44,531 nucleotides of DNA from Candidatus Brocadia sp. (GTDB lineage: Bacteria; Planctomycetota; Brocadiia; Brocadiales; Brocadiaceae). The position numbers and the translations under genes are program-made. Shown piece after piece: positions 14,753 through 44,531 of the stretch (position 1 is its first letter; each line of letters begins with the position of its first letter). Below the pieces are notes generated by a model. It saw only the letters and a list, made by a program, of their open reading frames with translations, was not told where the DNA came from and did not search any database. The DNA is taken from NCBI GenBank assembly GCA_011525665.1, contig WYAU01000025.1:1-44531 (forward strand), read 5' to 3'.

Positions 14753-14924
14753 TGGGGCTATTTTATGTGATACCCTCTTTTTCCAGGGGCTGTCGCTCCT
14801 GGCTATGTTCTTTCTGCCTTTCAGGCATAAAATAAATATTTTACTATGTTTATACATAAGGGCACAAATAATGACGCATAATTATCCTTTCTGTTACATT
14901 AAAATAACTGAAAGGAGGGGTGTT

Positions 14925-33234: not shown

Positions 33235-34293
33235 TCAATATTGGCGGAAGTTCTCAAAGTGGTTGCATAGTATATCGACGATCCGTTCTCCAACGCCATA
33301 TGATCCATAGATTGGTGGAAACACCTTTCCTTTTTGGGCCAACTGCATTTCCACCGCCTGAAGAATGTCGTTTCTCGCAAAGCCTGAGACTACATTTGCA
33401 TTGTTGAGAATCGTTTCATGTCGCTCGGTGTTCTCACGCAGCGTTACGCAGGGTACATTGAATAAATACGCCTCCTCCTGCACACAACCGCTATCCGTCA
33501 AAATAATCTCGGCATGTTTCTCGTATGAAAGTGATTTTAGCGGTGGTACGGGTTTGATAACTTGTACCAGATCGAGAAGTGTGGAAGAAATATTAAATCG
33601 CTTCATTGCATCATATGTACGAGGGTGCATCGGAAAAATAATGTGGCTAAACTTTGTTTCAAGCAGGTTAAGCGTTTCAAACACAGAGATCATCAAAGCT
33701 TTGCTATCGGTGAATTCCTTGCGATGTAAAGTTACATATGCGTAATTGTTTATGTTTGGTTTGAACAGTTGCTTATCAAAATCGACGAGCAAGTCTACGG
33801 TAGTGTTCCCAACAAGGAAAACCCTACCTCGTAGATCGGGAATACCATCAAGGTATGCCGCTTGGTAATCAGTATAGGCAAACAAGTAGTGTGCAGCAGC
33901 GTCCACCATGATGCGGTTGCGCTCTTCGTACATTGCTTTGTCGAACGAGCGCAGGCCAGCCTCAATATGGGCAAGACCCACGTCAGAATAGACGGCGGCA
34001 ATTGCGGCAACGAGAGCGGCTGCCGTATCACCATTAGCTAAGAGGAGATCAATATTCTGGGTTCGCACGAGTTCGCGCACCCAATCAATTGCCTTGCCAA
34101 TGTCATACTTTCCTTCGAGTACCCGGTCTGGGTAGTATCCCATCTGCTCGAAGATTGCGCCTTGCATTGCATAATCGTGATGTTGATTCGTGTGAATAAC
34201 CTCAAACTCAACGTTACGCTTTCTAAGCGCTTTGACCACCGCGTAATTTTTGATAATCTCTGGCCTTGTTCCTAAGACAATTGCTACTTTCAT
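33235..34293 (-). CDS. wecB: UDP-N-acetylglucosamine 2-epimerase
   Basis: A 352-aa enzyme with the family motifs GTRPEIIKNYAVVKAL, HIEAGLRSFDKAMYEERNR, YVTLHRKEFTD, PMHPRTYD, LTDSGCVQEEA and CVTLRENTERHETI. It makes UDP-ManNAc for surface polysaccharide. Its start overlaps the upstream SGNH gene by 4 nt, so the two form an operon. The enzyme is not flanked by a full polysaccharide locus, only by the sulfotransferase and SGNH genes. Confidence 0.92.
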   Translation of the reverse strand: MKVAIVLGTRPEIIKNYAVVKALRKRNVEFEVIHTNQHHDYAMQGAIFEQMGYYPDRVLEGKYDIGKAIDWVRELVRTQNIDLLLANGDTAAALVAAIAAVYSDVGLAHIEAGLRSFDKAMYEERNRIMVDAAAHYLFAYTDYQAAYLDGIPDLRGRVFLVGNTTVDLLVDFDKQLFKPNINNYAYVTLHRKEFTDSKALMISVFETLNLLETKFSHIIFPMHPRTYDAMKRFNISSTLLDLVQVIKPVPPLKSLSYEKHAEIILTDSGCVQEEAYLFNVPCVTLRENTERHETILNNANVVSGFARNDILQAVEMQLAQKGKVFPPIYGSYGVGERIVDILCNHFENFRQY

Positions 34294-34853
34294 AGCTTCT
34301 GAATAGCTGTGCTGAACGCCTCAGCTACAAGTAAATTGCCTTTTTCGTTAAAATGAACAGGATCCTCGTAGCAATCTCGACTTAATCCCTCCATTTTGAC
34401 TAGATATGCCTGCGGAAACTCGGAGACTACTTTCTCAATCACATGATTTAATCTTTCGCGTCTTTCGATCGTGGCTTTATTGAAGAAGATGTGTCCGTCA
34501 GGGTAAATGGGAGGAATTTCACCGCAAAAAACAGCGCGGTAATGTTTTACAGAGAACATTCGTAGAATCTGTCTGTAATATTCTTCGAACAGGTCACAGT
34601 CCTTGTTTTCACCACAATCGTTAGTTCCGATAAGTAGACAAGCCTGAAACGTATCGTAGATAGTATCTATTTCCCGGTTAAGCATGAACCACAGATCGCG
34701 GGCAGTATAACCGTTCGTGCTTCGATTGATTGTTCGCCACTTGTAAGGCGTTTTCGTGCTTAGTATTTGTGCGAGGTAGAGTGGATAACAACCGTACGTC
34801 CTTGCACCGAAGGTCTGGCTATCCCCAACACAAAGAATGTTTTGGTAATTCAT
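34290..34853 (-). CDS. SGNH/GDSL-family hydrolase
   Basis: A 187-aa protein from ATG 34853 (MNYQNILCVGDSQTFG), 6 nt after AGAGGA. The open frame extends to 34970, but those codons lie over an IS4 remnant on the other strand. Block I is GDSQTFG (Ser12), block III LIGTNDCGENKD, and block V DPVHFNEKG with Asp and His. Such enzymes remove acetyl or acyl groups from glycans. It has a 4-nt overlap with the epimerase. A c-di-GMP riboswitch lies upstream on the same strand. Confidence 0.85.
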   Translation of the reverse strand: MNYQNILCVGDSQTFGARTYGCYPLYLAQILSTKTPYKWRTINRSTNGYTARDLWFMLNREIDTIYDTFQACLLIGTNDCGENKDCDLFEEYYRQILRMFSVKHYRAVFCGEIPPIYPDGHIFFNKATIERRERLNHVIEKVVSEFPQAYLVKMEGLSRDCYEDPVHFNEKGNLLVAEAFSTAIQKL

Positions 34854-34902
34854 TGCCATTCCTCTGTTAAAAAACTTTTGTAAAAATATTTTCTGGTTAC
34901 CC

Positions 34903-35093
34903 GTTTGAACTGTTTTTAAGGCACTCAAACAGAACCTCAAGACAAAGACATTTGTGGGAATCAGTGCCAACGCGGTGAAAATTCAAATTTGGACAGCACT
35001 CATTGCCATGGTGATCCTGAAGTATTTCCAACTGAGGTTAAAGTTCTCATGATCTCTTTCCAATTTGGTGGCTTTTTGCGAAAAACTTGTCTA
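34903..35093 (+). pseudogene. IS4-family transposase C-terminal remnant
   Basis: The plus strand reads FKALKQNLKTKTFVGISANA then VKIQIWTALIAMVILKYFQL, the C-terminal part of IS4-type transposases. A TGA at 35050-35052 replaces the usual Trp before SLSNLVA. The rest of the element is missing. It separates the riboswitch cassette from the SGNH-epimerase operon. Confidence 0.75.
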
Positions 35094-35160: not shown

Positions 35161-35215
35161 AAATAAAAAAACCTTACTGCAAAAACGTTTTTTGCGAACA
35201 TTTTCGGCAGTAAGG
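35161..35215 (-). terminator. Riboswitch-linked intrinsic terminator
   Basis: On the minus strand CCTTACTGC (complement of 35207-35215) pairs with GCAGTAAGG (complement of 35172-35180), followed by TTTTTTTATTT. The 5' arm lies inside the aptamer's 3' end (GATAGCCTTACTGCC), so ligand binding and terminator formation compete. An inner stem GCAAAA/TTTTGC lies within the loop. Confidence 0.85.
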
Positions 35216-35304
35216 CTATCTTTCTGCTGCTGGTGCTTCTTCGTGCGTACTCAGAGACCCTTTTACTTTGCGTCACCTGATTACTCAGGGTTTACCTTTC
35301 TCGA
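35205..35304 (-). ncRNA. c-di-GMP-I (GEMM) riboswitch aptamer
   Basis: Minus-strand sequence has the GEMM-I core in order: GGTAAACC, a stem with a GNRA loop (CCTGA-GTAA-TCAGG), TGACGCAAAG, GGGTCT, a variable second stem, then GATAGCC and the closing TTACTGCC. GGTAA can pair with TTACT to form the closing helix. The residue aligned to Vc2 G20, which selects c-di-GMP over 3',3'-cGAMP, appears to be G. A promoter begins 12 nt upstream and a terminator overlaps the 3' end. The downstream coding genes are the SGNH hydrolase and epimerase, after an IS4 remnant. Confidence 0.85.
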
Positions 35305-35315
35305 ATGGCTAGGTT

Positions 35316-35920: not shown

Positions 35921-38563
35921 TTAAAGGTTCTGTGCTGTTATTGACAATTCTCTGTTCAAACATTCCACCCTTTCCTTCGCCTGTTCTATTCTGACCGAAA
36001 CCAACCCGCGGATAGAGCCAAACAATTTTGTTGATTGCTGCTCATCGATGATACGCGTATAGGCATCTATCGCCCTTTTGTAATATTCACCCTGCTCATG
36101 CCCGTAGAGCATGGCCAATTCTTCATAAAGATTGCCGATACGGTACTGGGCATTAACCGGCATTATTCCTTCAAACTTTTCGATAATCTCCAGAAATTTT
36201 GTGAGTGCCTTTTCATAATAGATTTTTACCCCCTCGTCGTCTCCGATATCATAAAGCGCCAGACCCACATAATGATATGCCTCCGCCATTGCATATGAAT
36301 GTTCCTGCGCATCTTTCCTGTATCCATCCTTAAGTTCCTCCAGCATATTTTTATATCTTTTTTCCATTACCTCGACAAGGCTGATGCTCAGCGGAATATC
36401 GGCATCCTCCAGTTCGTTGTGGCTTTCTATGGTTACGTGAGGGAGAAGCAATTTCGACAAACTCTCCAAACCCAACCCCTCTACGCGATAGAGTTCGCCC
36501 ACAGAATCAAATTTCTTATGCGCCCTCTTATACCTGAGAATGCCATCCGTTTCATTTCGCGTAATTCCGCATTCCCTGTTCAGGAAAAGGGAAAGCTCCT
36601 CATCGCCTGCAGTGTTCAGCTTCTTGTATAACCTTAATAATTTGCTGAGGATGGCCAGTTTGTAGGAAGGACTTTTTCCATGCAAGACGCTTCTCCGGAA
36701 GAAGATGAGCCACGGTTCCCTGCACGAGGATTTCAGGTACCATTCATTGCTATAAAAAACTTCCAGTGCGATCCCCAGTTTGTATTTTTCCAGATATTCC
36801 GATTCCGTGTAATCGAGTTCCTGATATATTTTGTCAACCAGGTCAAAATACTCGTTAAGGATATCTTTCATCTGAATGGAATTCACCTTGCGGTAGAGAT
36901 TCAATTGCGGGCTGTAGTGTAATGCCTTTCTATAACAGGCAAGGGCTGCCTCATAGCGCCGGTCATGACAATGCTTGTCTCCGAGGTACTCATAAAATCT
37001 TTTAATCATAAGTTTGGATTTCAGCCAAACATCGTCTTTCCGGCCCAAGCGGCATACATTTTTAAAATGTTCAATGAGGGCTTCGGGTGTTTGGACTTTT
37101 TTATTCGCAAGATCGTCCAGTCCCTCGATGTATTCATACAGGGCGTCACACTTCTGCAGGAAATCCCCGTTGGTATTGCACCTTCGCGCCTGCTGTATGC
37201 TTTCCCTTGCGTTGTGAAACATGCCATACTCCGCGTAGGCCATTCCCAGGTGGATGAGCAAATCCCCATCCACCCCCGTACAGGTTTCTGTCCGTTCTTT
37301 GTATTGCCGCAAGTATTTGCTGATCGCCGTTGTGTAGATAACAGGAACGATCTCAAGGTTATTATCGGTAACGCGAATTACATGCACCATTACCTCCCCT
37401 GTTTCAGGCGCTGATTTTACTCCCGGAACTTCTCGTCCGTCCGGGAATCGAATCCAGGGCGTTTTTTTGATGACACTGGCCGTAAAGACCATATCTGCGC
37501 CATGAGCCAGGTCTTTTGAACTCAGGACTTTATCCCATGGTTTCTCCCCCGCTTTTTCTGTGCCTGGCCTCACAATCCTGAAGTTTCTCAAAATGTCTAT
37601 TTCATTTTTTTTGAAGAGATTCCAATTGATCAGTTTCCGCAGCAACTTTTCATCCTGTGCCACCTCGGCTGGTAAAATCCTCAGGGTCATTTCACCTCCC
37701 AATTTTTCCACGATAATTGCGCTTAATATCGCCTGGGGGATTCCGCCTACTCCGGTGATCAGGTCAATGTCGTTTCTTACAACCGCAAGGGTAGGCGTAA
37801 GATCATCATCCTTGACAAGAAGTATTTGAGCGCCCAGCCCTTTAACGGTTTTGATAAGCTTCTCGTGCCGTGGCCTTTCGAGGATGACAATTTTCAGCGC
37901 CCTGATTTCATCGCAAATATTCTGAGAAGAGATATCCCTGCCCTTCATTTTCAGCGTATGGACAGCCATAAGATGCAGATTCTTCGTAACGCCGTGTGTC
38001 ACATTAACCCCGGCCCCTTTATATTTATTTCCCACGACCGTTTTTGCCCCGTACATGTCGGGAGAATTGAATAATCCGCCTCTTTCACTGTATCCGACGG
38101 CAAAAATTGCTCCCCCCCCGCATTCCTGATTGACAATACACCGGTCATTTTCAAATGCGCTGGGCACAATGTCTGCCTCGTCCGCATCCCCTGCGGCAGT
38201 GCCGAATGTTTCTCCTATATAGAGCATGGGCATATATTTCCGTTCACCCTCGGCGTTGACCACGTAGGCGTTCCACCAGTTAAAGCTGTTATAAATGTGC
38301 CTGAGCCGCCAGACGACCATATCCCGAACACGAAAGATATTAAAGCCCTCGCTGTTTGTGCTGAAATAACGCAAAGACCTTGCAGCAACTACCCCGACAG
38401 GATGTCTCAATTCATTTCTGTTTGCCAATTGAAGGCCTTCCCCCGAAACCTTTAAATTGTACACTTCGGGAATATATGCCTCAATAATATAAGGATCGTC
38501 TGTTTTTTTGAAATCAAAACTCGTGTCTTTTATAAAGGTGGTATTTTTTCTCTCTTCGTTCAT
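35921..38563 (-). CDS. GlpX-like pseudoenzyme fused to TPR and helix-hairpin-helix regions
   Basis: An 880-aa protein. Residues about 75-415 align with class II fructose-1,6-bisphosphatase (GlpX): MPMLYIGETFGTAAGDADEA (111-130), SPDMYGAKTVVG, LERPRHEKLI and DLITGVGGIPQAILSA. The catalytic DPIEGT motif is replaced near 131-140 (DIVPSAFEND), and the conserved Glu of GGxPEG is Gln277. The rest is helical: TPR-like repeats at about 425-650, a helix-hairpin-helix-like VGELYRVEGLGLESLSKLL (about 688-706) and more TPR-like helices to the end. A scaffold or sensor that uses the sugar-phosphate fold is likely. I know of no standard name. Confidence 0.75.
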   Translation of the reverse strand: MNEERKNTTFIKDTSFDFKKTDDPYIIEAYIPEVYNLKVSGEGLQLANRNELRHPVGVVAARSLRYFSTNSEGFNIFRVRDMVVWRLRHIYNSFNWWNAYVVNAEGERKYMPMLYIGETFGTAAGDADEADIVPSAFENDRCIVNQECGGGAIFAVGYSERGGLFNSPDMYGAKTVVGNKYKGAGVNVTHGVTKNLHLMAVHTLKMKGRDISSQNICDEIRALKIVILERPRHEKLIKTVKGLGAQILLVKDDDLTPTLAVVRNDIDLITGVGGIPQAILSAIIVEKLGGEMTLRILPAEVAQDEKLLRKLINWNLFKKNEIDILRNFRIVRPGTEKAGEKPWDKVLSSKDLAHGADMVFTASVIKKTPWIRFPDGREVPGVKSAPETGEVMVHVIRVTDNNLEIVPVIYTTAISKYLRQYKERTETCTGVDGDLLIHLGMAYAEYGMFHNARESIQQARRCNTNGDFLQKCDALYEYIEGLDDLANKKVQTPEALIEHFKNVCRLGRKDDVWLKSKLMIKRFYEYLGDKHCHDRRYEAALACYRKALHYSPQLNLYRKVNSIQMKDILNEYFDLVDKIYQELDYTESEYLEKYKLGIALEVFYSNEWYLKSSCREPWLIFFRRSVLHGKSPSYKLAILSKLLRLYKKLNTAGDEELSLFLNRECGITRNETDGILRYKRAHKKFDSVGELYRVEGLGLESLSKLLLPHVTIESHNELEDADIPLSISLVEVMEKRYKNMLEELKDGYRKDAQEHSYAMAEAYHYVGLALYDIGDDEGVKIYYEKALTKFLEIIEKFEGIMPVNAQYRIGNLYEELAMLYGHEQGEYYKRAIDAYTRIIDEQQSTKLFGSIRGLVSVRIEQAKERVECLNRELSITAQNL

Positions 38564-41754: not shown

Positions 41755-42145
41755 GGCTGATAACTTGTACAAAAACTTCCCTGCGTCGCGGTCCGTCAAA
41801 TTCACAAAAATAAATACCCTGCCATGTACCGAGCGCCAGCTTTCCGCCGGAAATAGGCGCCGATACTGAGGAACCGACGAGCGTGGCCCTGATGTGTGCA
41901 GCGGCATTCCCTTCCCCGTGGGTGTAGTGGCCATTCCAGGGTACCAATCTGTCGAGTTCATTTATTATATCCTTCCGGACGGAAGGATCCGCGTTTTCGT
42001 TGATCGTGACAGCAGCCGTGGTATGGGGGACGTATACACAGCATATTCCCTCCCTCACCCCTTGTTTTTCCAGCACCCTGTTCACGTGCGATGTGATATC
42101 GATAAACTCGGCCCTGGAATGTGTCGTTACCGCTATTTTCTCCAT
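41747..42145 (-). CDS. yjbQ: YjbQ/UPF0047 family protein
   Basis: A 132-aa single-domain protein with the family signature HTTAAVTINENADPSVRKD and HGEGNAAAHIRATLVGSS (metal-binding His residues). It has been described as a side-reaction thiamine-phosphate synthase, with the true role unclear. It ends in an overlap with the CPBP gene, forming a two-gene operon. Confidence 0.93.
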   Translation of the reverse strand: MEKIAVTTHSRAEFIDITSHVNRVLEKQGVREGICCVYVPHTTAAVTINENADPSVRKDIINELDRLVPWNGHYTHGEGNAAAHIRATLVGSSVSAPISGGKLALGTWQGIYFCEFDGPRRREVFVQVISRE

Positions 42146-42432
42146 AATCCCGTTGATTGCGCCGGTATCGTAACGGCGGAGAGATCGTGTGTCAGATATA
42201 ACAAGACATTTTTATTATTCATCTGCTGATACTCTTCTGAATTTTTTTATTTTACCAGTAATATAAAGGTATTCAAGGAAATTTGTCTCCTGCGCGCCCT
42301 CTCCCGGTTTTGTGCTTTCAGGTATGGCGTATTTTCCCGTTGATTTTTTCAGGAGATATATCATATAGTGTGACCTGTCGTATCTTTTAGAGACACCGGT
42401 TTGGCGGGAATCAATCTGATTATGAGTTTTCT

Positions 42433-43515
42433 ATGCTCGAAACATTTCGGCTGGCAAAATTCAGATTTACGGTCGGCGCAAAAGGGCGGATATGCTTCCC
42501 CCCCTATAAAGGATCTGCATTCCGCGGCGGTTTTGGATATGCCTTCAAACGGATCGTCTGTGTAGTGAGAAACAAGGGGTGTGACGGCTGCCTCCTGAAG
42601 CAGAAGTGCATCTATTCGTATATCTTTGAGACACCGCCACCGCAGGATACCAAAATGCTCCGGCTCTATCCGAAGGTGCCTCACCCCTTTGTTATTGAGC
42701 CACCTGATACGGAAAAACAGTCCTTTGAACCCGGCGAAGCATTCTCCTTTCATGTAATCCTCATCGGCCAGGCCATCGATTACCTGCCCTATTTTATCTA
42801 CACCTTTACTGAATTGGGAAAGCAGGGGATCGGGCAGGGACGTGGTAAATATGACCTGATACTGGTGGAGGGTGTCGGTTTCGGAAATGAGGCAGTCCCG
42901 ATTTACCATAATACCACCCAAACCCTCGCAAACAATTATCCCATCATACAAGCCCGCCAATTTGTTCAGGAAAATATGGAAAGCCGCTCTATAGCAAAAT
43001 GCAATAAAACCTTCTCATCTTCGCAAGGTAAAAACAGAGCAGTTTCCTCCCCTTACGAAGGGGAGGACAAAGGTGGGGTCAAAAACTTACCCCAACAGGG
43101 TTGCTCTCAGGAAAATAACCATAATAACACAATAACCATCTCGCTATTAACCCCCCTACGCCTGCGTTTTGACGGTCATATAACCGACAAGATCGAATTC
43201 CACGTCCTCATCAGGAACCTCCTGCGCCGTATCTCTTCCCTATCCTATTTTCATTGTGGCGAAAAATTTGAGGTAGATTTTAAAAGTCTCATAGAAAAGG
43301 CTGGCGCAGTTAAGATGATAAAATCTGATATGCGTTGGTTTGACTGGAAACGCTATTCCACAAGGCAGGAGGAATGGATGTCACTGGGCGGCGTCACGGG
43401 CACGGTTTCACACGAGGGTGATTTATCAGAATTCATGCTATTTCTAAGACTGGGTGAATATGTGCATGCGGGGAAAGGGACGTCGTTTGGGTTGGGAAAA
43501 TATAAAATCCTGTAA
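42433..43515 (+). CDS. Second Cas6-type RAMP endoribonuclease (PF10040-like)
   Basis: A 360-aa protein. The N-terminal RAMP part has KGSAFRGGFGYAFKR and a Cys cluster CDGCLLKQKC (50-59), typical of PF10040 Cas6 proteins. The C-terminal part has LGGVTGTV and the terminal glycine-rich loop GEYVHAGKGTSFGLGKYKIL. Between residues about 186 and 232 is a low-complexity Ser/Asn/Gln segment, part of which is a dispersed hairpin (43046-43066). No cas genes are adjacent here. It may serve another array or a type III system beyond the right edge, or be an orphan. Confidence 0.85.
   Translation: MLETFRLAKFRFTVGAKGRICFPPYKGSAFRGGFGYAFKRIVCVVRNKGCDGCLLKQKCIYSYIFETPPPQDTKMLRLYPKVPHPFVIEPPDTEKQSFEPGEAFSFHVILIGQAIDYLPYFIYTFTELGKQGIGQGRGKYDLILVEGVGFGNEAVPIYHNTTQTLANNYPIIQARQFVQENMESRSIAKCNKTFSSSQGKNRAVSSPYEGEDKGGVKNLPQQGCSQENNHNNTITISLLTPLRLRFDGHITDKIEFHVLIRNLLRRISSLSYFHCGEKFEVDFKSLIEKAGAVKMIKSDMRWFDWKRYSTRQEEWMSLGGVTGTVSHEGDLSEFMLFLRLGEYVHAGKGTSFGLGKYKIL
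43046..43066. repeat. Dispersed hairpin element inside the second cas6
   Basis: CCTCCCCTT-ACG-AAGGGGAGG has a perfect 9-bp stem and is followed by ACAAAGGTGGGGTC. The same style of C/G-rich hairpin appears in the gap at about 6840-6880. Its insertion is in frame and encodes SSPYEGEDKGG. Confidence 0.7.
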
Positions 43516-43548
43516 GCCACAGAGGACACAGAGGCCGCAGAGAAGTGG

Positions 43549-43572
43549 CACGGACAAACAAGTTTGTCCGTG
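43549..43572. repeat. Perfect 24-bp palindrome CACGGACAAAC-AA-GTTTGTCCGTG
   Basis: The arms are 11 bp and the centre is AA. It is 34 nt after the second cas6 and may also act as its transcript end. It is related to 16085-16107. The rest of 43516-43783 shows no gene, only short repeats of the CCACAGAGGACACAGAG kind. Confidence 0.75.
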
Positions 43573-43783
43573 TTTGAACTGAAACACTATGAGTGGTTTG
43601 ATACCTGCCGCTGAAGGGCAGATAGCCAATAGCCAGGGTGAGGCCACTGGACAGGGAGACAACCCATAATCAACCCCATCGGGGTGAAAGGAAAGGTTTC
43701 GATTCTGCATTATTCCGTATCAAAACATTGAGCTTAACCTGTGTATGCCCATGTGTTAGTTATGTGTATAAGGAGGTGTATGA

Positions 43784-43924
43784 ATGAGAACAAATATTGT
43801 GTTGGAAGAAGATATCGTCAGGGAGGCATTTAAATATTCCAGGGCGAAGACAAAAAAAGACCTTATCCATGAAGACACTGATTTTGACCATATCGCAAAG
43901 CCGGTCAAATTAAGGATGTATTGA
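43784..43924 (+). pseudogene. Chimeric VapB-VapC remnant
   Basis: With AAGGAGGTG upstream, the ATG opens MRTNIVLEEDIVREAFKYSR then AKTKKDLIH, the N-terminus of a VapB antitoxin. It goes directly into EDTDFDHIAKPVKLRMY, which is the C-terminus of a VapC PIN toxin. The end of vapB and nearly all of vapC are missing without any frame break. The 46-aa product keeps the DNA-binding N-terminus but no PIN active site. Confidence 0.7.
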
Positions 43925-44075
43925 TTACAAGGGGCAGAATGAATAATGAAAGGGTTTCTTTTCGTGAAACGTGTCACTTGAACATGACCGTTAGCCTGAA
44001 AATATTTTTACCGGACATGGATACTGGGTTACGAATGAGTCGTGAGTGATTCTCTTGTCTTGCTTGCTTCTAAAA

Positions 44076-44100
44076 AGGCTTGTCCTGAGCCTGTCGAAGG
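44076..44100. repeat. TTGTCCTGAGCCTGTCGAAGG-type dispersed repeat
   Basis: AGGCTTGTCCTGAGCCTGTC followed by GAAGG is a motif I recognise as recurring between genes in many bacterial genomes. It lies just upstream of the HEPN-MNT remnant. Only one copy is in the window. Confidence 0.4.
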
Positions 44101-44201
44101 AGGTGTGTTTCATGGACACAGAGTACAATCACGAACAACGAACACGTAACCGAACGAAGAAATGGATGTGTGGCACGGACAACGACACTTTGGATGAAGA
44201 A

Positions 44202-44417
44202 ATGGACGAACAGCAGAGAAAAAGCGTTCAATACTGGCTTGAATCTTCAGAGGACGACTGGAAGGTTGCAAACCACCTTTTTGAAAAGGGAACGGCAAAG
44301 GAATGGAGCGATATCGACGTTGCGTTGGTTTCACCTGATTTTACAGGAGACAGATTTGAAGATCGGAGGAGGATTGTACCGCTGAGAAGAAAGATAGATA
44401 GCAGGCTAGTATATTGA
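44202..44417 (+). pseudogene. Chimeric HEPN-MNT remnant
   Basis: From ATG 44202 the first 30 residues, MDEQQRKSVQYWLESSEDDW and KVANHLFEKG, are the start of a HEPN protein. The next residues TAKEWSDIDVALVSPDFTGD and RFEDRRRIVPLRRKIDS are the C-terminal half of an MNT nucleotidyltransferase, from just after its GS motif. The HEPN active region and the MNT Gly-Ser loop are lost and the 3' end is also cut. The 71-aa frame is open but should be non-functional. Confidence 0.7.
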
Positions 44418-44449
44418 CAAATTAATATCGAAACATTATGCTGTGCTTC

Positions 44450-44531
44450 ATGAGACAAACAAAAATTCAACTTACCGAGGAAGAACGAACAACCTTGAAG
44501 TCATTTCGCTCCAAGGGGCAGCACATGACAA
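44450..44531 (+). CDS. IS630-like transposase, N-terminus only (cut by window edge)
   Basis: ATG at 44450 opens MRQTKIQLTEEERTTLKSFR followed by SKGQHMT and runs off the right edge. ITEEER-like openings followed by a basic helix are typical of IS630-family transposases. Whether the gene is intact cannot be seen. Confidence 0.6.
   Translation, partial: MRQTKIQLTEEERTTLKSFRSKGQHMT

Follow-up and report, generated by a model that had tools for sequence, protein, structure and literature searches.

Class II fructose-1,6-bisphosphatases (FBPases) of the GlpX type are homotetramers with 222 symmetry (PMC5892879). The RxR motif of these enzymes binds the 6-phosphate, and the DGD motif binds the furanose hydroxyls (PMC10289334). 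The T84A variant of M. tuberculosis GlpX shows no activity, and its structure was determined with F6P (PMC5892879); the D61A variant of E. coli GlpX has essentially no activity, yet it was crystallised with FBP bound. We examined a gene in which a GlpX-like domain is joined to a long helical tail. It lies in a 44,531-nucleotide stretch of a Candidatus Brocadia contig, and this whole stretch is referred to as the window hereafter.

The gene occupies positions 35921..38563 of the minus strand and encodes 880 amino acids, which confirms the reading frame given in the earlier note on this DNA. The protein consists of a GlpX-like pseudoenzyme domain, a TPR region, a helix-hairpin-helix (HhH) segment and C-terminal helices. 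The homology of the protein to GlpX, also recognized in that note, goes far beyond a chance match: the Pfam model PF03320 (FBPase_glpX) gave 135 bits against a gathering score of 27 (E 2.8e-39), and all of the PDB sequence matches were class II FBPases (best E 5e-24). The full-length AF2 model was of moderate quality (pLDDT 79), with weak parts at residues 76-169, where the pocket lies, and at residues 713-748. When canonical GlpX rows were put into the alignment for a second AF2 model of residues 1-425, the weak 76-169 region was mended, and the values rose to pLDDT 91.3 and pTM 0.92. With this improved model, Foldseek ranked 24 class II FBPase chains ahead of all else. The VIA comparison with E. 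coli GlpX (2r8t), a superposition that the earlier note had proposed, verified that the fold is the same (Z 34.5, rmsd 2.8, 314 residues aligned), while IMPase/SuhB proteins gave Z values of 10-11. The fold covers residues ~44-412 by this comparison (feature at residues 45-412, 37328..38431, minus strand), and is thus not limited to the first 340 residues, as had been supposed.

The C-terminal tail of about 460 residues, for which no second copy was found in the same genome, consists of three parts, all on the minus strand. One is a TPR-like helical region (residues 413-640, 36644..37327), which matched PF07719 (TPR_2) in 3 stretches (31.4 bits against a cut-off of 27, E 1.6e-7) and is helical in the AF2 model. 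It resembles TPR superhelices in a general way only, and its Foldseek TPR matches rank below the GlpX ones. Another is a ComEA-type HhH segment (residues 649-706, 36446..36619), matched by PF12836 (HHH_3; weakly, 0.0034) and by the NCBIfam ComEA model (3.4e-5). The presence of these two regions agrees with the earlier note. The last is a set of C-terminal helices found in the AF2 model (residues 716-880, 35924..36418), which starts with the conserved NELEDADIPLSIS stretch.

The phyletic search suggested in the earlier note clarified that the fusion is not a local oddity and is carried by most anammox bacteria. Orthologs with 50-80% identity were found in 46 of the 61 sampled Brocadiales genomes, in three families. 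According to a hand count of the search table, in which fragments and split copies also counted as occurrences, the fusion occurs in 28 of 33 genomes of the window's family (f1, which holds Brocadia, Jettenia and Loosdrechtia), in 16 of 17 Scalinduaceae genomes (f4, with Scalindua) and in both Anammoxibacteraceae genomes (f5, with Anammoxibacter), the genera being known from named loci on shared contigs; it is absent from all nine genomes of family f2, which is probably Bathyanammoxibiaceae judging from the families of the order, and from the single genome of f3. Since five f1 genomes and one Scalinduaceae genome lack it, the fusion is not essential to anammox. Among 392 genomes sampled across Planctomycetota, no fusion was found outside Brocadiales, the other proteins being ordinary GlpX, and the 13 genomes sampled from the rest of the class to which Brocadiales belongs contained no GlpX at all. 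Long frames in three genomes outside the order were considered as candidate fusions and turned out to be ordinary GlpX in long open frames. In a scan of 84,980 species for close relatives, all 28 matches belonged to anammox lineages or Planctomycetota MAGs. One genome carries three copies of the main fusion form. Several Scalinduaceae genomes also carry a second, diverged GlpX+TPR family of ~1000 amino acids (five loci), with 23-25% identity over its length.

The dN/dS values between Brocadia orthologs were 0.08-0.16 over the whole fusion protein and low in both the GlpX part and the tail; the short HhH segment was the exception, with 0.54 in one ortholog pair. The whole fusion protein is thus under purifying selection. 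In one Brocadia genome, the frame is split into pieces, as a decaying pseudogene or a chance fusion confined to one assembly might be. However, this explanation is refuted by the occurrence in 46 genomes of three families, with open frames in nearly all, and by a dN/dS of about 0.1, and we regard it as having practically no chance of being correct.

For the active site, 40 orthologs, the 5 distant paralogs (23-25% identity) and 12 canonical Planctomycetota GlpX controls were aligned in E. coli numbering, with the residue list taken from PMC5892879 and the residue roles from PMC5892879 and PMC10289334. A clear contrast is seen between the two halves of the site. On the cleavage side, Arg80 (38324..38326, minus strand, as are all positions below) stands at the site of the catalytic and metal-ligand residue Asp33 (Arg in all 40 orthologs and all 5 paralogs), and Lys109 (38237..38239) stands at the Asp61 site (Lys in 39 of the 40 orthologs and all 5 paralogs). 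These two charge reversals are the most telling changes, and they had been missed in the earlier note. The DPIEGT motif, which that note had described as gone, is replaced by SAFEND (residues 135-140, 38144..38161): Asp85 is Ser and Gly89 is Asn in all 40 orthologs, and Thr90 is Asp in the window, while the metal ligand Glu88 survives as E138. The nucleophile Thr90 is missing from every ortholog, and no conserved replacement was found among the 40 at position 140 (Asp 36, Ala 2, Gly 1, His 1). Thus, Thr90 together with Asp33 is found in none of the 40 orthologs and in all 12 canonical proteins, and the set of Asp85, Glu57, Glu88 and Glu213 is incomplete throughout the fusion family, in which Asp85 is lost from all orthologs. 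The canonical controls keep every listed residue, with Asp in place of Glu88 in two of them. In the 5 distant paralogs, the ~1000-residue Scalinduaceae proteins, the changes in the cleavage half are the same as in the orthologs or similar; they too have Arg for D33 and Lys for D61, and they have Gly for Glu213.

On the other side, both the RxR 6-phosphate pocket and the furanose site are largely retained in the fusion. The RPRH sequence (residues 230-233, 37865..37876), which contains the PRH motif already noticed earlier, forms the 6-phosphate pocket (role from PMC10289334); R230 and the His following RxR are kept in 40/40 orthologs and the second Arg (R232) in 39/40. Glu57, Glu88, Tyr119 and Asp188 are also kept in all 40. 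At the furanose-hydroxyl site, DDD (residues 252-254, 37802..37810) stands for DGD. This site reads (D/E)DD in the family, the first residue being D in 26, E in 13 and N in 1 of the 40 orthologs, and D253 and D254 are invariant (D254 in 40/40). Finally, Gln277 (37733..37735) is present at the Glu213 site, as had been stated; it occurs only in the window species, and 39/40 orthologs keep Glu there, so that this residue is private and does not define the fusion. In total, eight residues (R80, E105, E138, Y171, R230, H233, D253 and D254) are invariant in the 45 fusion-type sequences, down to 23% identity. Judging from the counts over 40 orthologs against 12 canonical proteins, the whole family has lost catalytic residues in the cleavage half of the site and has preserved the 6-phosphate half.

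The earlier idea that the GlpX domain is catalytically dead is well supported, as four catalytic or metal residues are lost across the whole family, and the fusion probably lacks phosphatase activity. Sugar-phosphate binding is plausible, since the residues for the 6-phosphate and the furanose hydroxyls persist beside a rebuilt 1-phosphate and metal side. A scaffold role is likewise plausible from the TPR tail. With the cutting residues lost, the grip on the sugar phosphate kept and a protein-binding tail joined, the protein would sense or tether rather than catalyse. Our main reading, to which we assign a probability of roughly 0.55, is therefore a stand-alone, order-specific GlpX pseudoenzyme that probably binds a phosphosugar and is used as a sensor or scaffold.

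Two other explanations of the same site were weighed. One is that the domain is still an enzyme with altered chemistry, e.g., another phosphosugar hydrolase or a transferase that uses E105, E138 and E213 together with the new Arg and Lys. The three acidic ligands, the 6-phosphate pocket and the strong conservation of the pocket fit this explanation; because Glu57 and Glu88 are kept, and Glu213 is kept in all but the window species, some metal binding and altered chemistry may remain. However, position 140 offers no conserved nucleophile, the M1 ligand Asp85 is lost in all orthologs, the charge is reversed at two acidic sites, and Glu213 is lost in the window species itself, which makes such an enzyme distinctly improbable. 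Another is that the GlpX domain is a pure oligomerisation core, which multimerises the TPR tails and whose vestigial pocket binds nothing. Canonical GlpX proteins are homotetramers (PMC5892879), the tail is rich in TPRs and the catalytic residues are gone; but a vestigial pocket should drift, and the eight invariant pocket residues in 45 sequences make a purely structural role unlikely.

For the phosphosugar-binding pseudoenzyme, the following mechanism seems likely. Phosphatase chemistry would have been lost with the nucleophile Thr90 and with the replacement of the metal ligands Asp33 and Asp85 and the catalytic Asp61. Arg80 and Lys109 would stand where the acidic metal-site residues were, and their basic side chains would do the electrostatic work of the metals; the two charge reversals suggest such a takeover. 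FBP, F6P or a similar metabolite would then be bound without cleavage, and partner proteins on the TPR helices of the tail would either receive this bound state or hold it. Binding without turnover has precedents in the D61A and T84A variants of GlpX, whose structures contain ligand. The bound sugar may differ from that of GlpX, because the first Asp of DGD varies. A more specific form of this proposal, which we put forward only tentatively, is a metal-free phosphosugar receptor in which Arg80 and Lys109 substitute for the catalytic metals and which couples the central carbon status to an anammox-specific protein assembly.

The HhH segment raises another explanation, namely a DNA- or RNA-linked regulator under sugar-phosphate control. 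The ComEA-type profile match at residues 648-705 is present, and the earlier note had recognized an HhH segment. However, the hairpin glycines are not conserved in the 40 orthologs, so that the segment does not have the features of a ComEA-type DNA-binding hairpin: position 698 in the second hairpin is Ser in 21 and Gly in 8, and at position 668 in the first hairpin Gly is nearly absent (Ser 21, Thr 6). Insertions of roughly 10-60 residues also occur within the segment, around residue 681, at six loci from several genera of the f1 family. The eroded glycines and the insertions leave nucleic-acid binding unsupported, and a regulator of this kind is very improbable.

The genome setting was also scrutinized. 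A class I FBPase is encoded on another contig of the same genome, in which no other GlpX was found; the fusion as a stand-in for a missing FBPase is ruled out by this class I enzyme. At 29 fusion loci, neither a widely common gene neighbour nor a conserved partner or pathway was found. Operon logic was rejected as a guide to the pathway, as neighbours are shared only between close relatives and not across genera; the protein therefore probably works by itself or in trans. A required link to hydrazine synthesis was rejected as well, since fusion-less genomes with HZS_alpha matches exist; HZS_alpha is a poor marker, because the Pfam model misses several fusion-bearing genomes and matches some outside Brocadiales. 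The nine f2 genomes without the fusion carry FBPase_3 instead. The gluconeogenic enzymes are split within anammox: f2 has FBPase_3 with neither class I FBPase nor the fusion, and f1, f4 and f5 mostly have class I FBPase and the fusion. Riboswitch control of the fusion was dismissed, because the c-di-GMP-I element (RF01051, 51.5 bits against 35; 35203-35306, minus strand), with a promoter-like site just upstream, lies downstream of the gene and is oriented towards the operon that follows. The genes after this element encode a GDSL hydrolase and a WecB-like epimerase (33235-34970), which suggests that c-di-GMP controls a surface-sugar operon there. Elsewhere in the window, a CRISPR Cas6 gene (PF10040) was found at 42433-43515 (plus strand), with no array recognised by a repeat search of 41900-44531, and an Acido-Lenti-1 RNA match at 14783-14828 (plus strand) was barely at the gathering score (37.1 against 37).

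The GlpX-TPR fusion appears to be undescribed. The HMM libraries scanned (Pfam, NCBIfam) hold no model of the GlpX+TPR+HhH architecture, neither these libraries nor the literature searched yielded a TPR protein with a GlpX-like N-terminal domain, and no publication on the fusion was found in that literature, which is weak evidence as subscription papers were mostly outside the search. If a phosphosugar is bound without cleavage, the protein would be the first class II FBPase-family pseudoenzyme described, as far as the searched literature shows. In that case, it would further offer a candidate metabolic sensor, conserved and lineage-specific, in anammox bacteria; these organisms matter for nitrogen loss and are genetically hard to study.

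Among known systems, TPR proteins (PF07719) share with the fusion the helical repeat tail after residue 413. SuhB and the inositol monophosphatases have the same wider phosphatase fold and are a distant match from a different family. In the rrn antitermination complex (6tqn), SuhB exemplifies a phosphatase fold serving as part of a larger protein complex; unlike SuhB, the fusion has a TPR tail, and there is no evidence of a transcription role for it. The closest system is class II FBPase GlpX itself (PF03320; 2r8t, 3d1r, 7txg, 6ayu), with which the fusion shares the fold at residues ~44-412, the RxR pocket, Tyr119, Glu57, Glu88 and Asp188. Unlike GlpX, it has Asp33, Asp61, Asp85, Gly89 and Thr90 replaced family-wide, its GlpX part scores under the NCBIfam equivalog cut-off (TIGR00330, 111.8 bits against 259.3), and it bears the long C-terminal tail.
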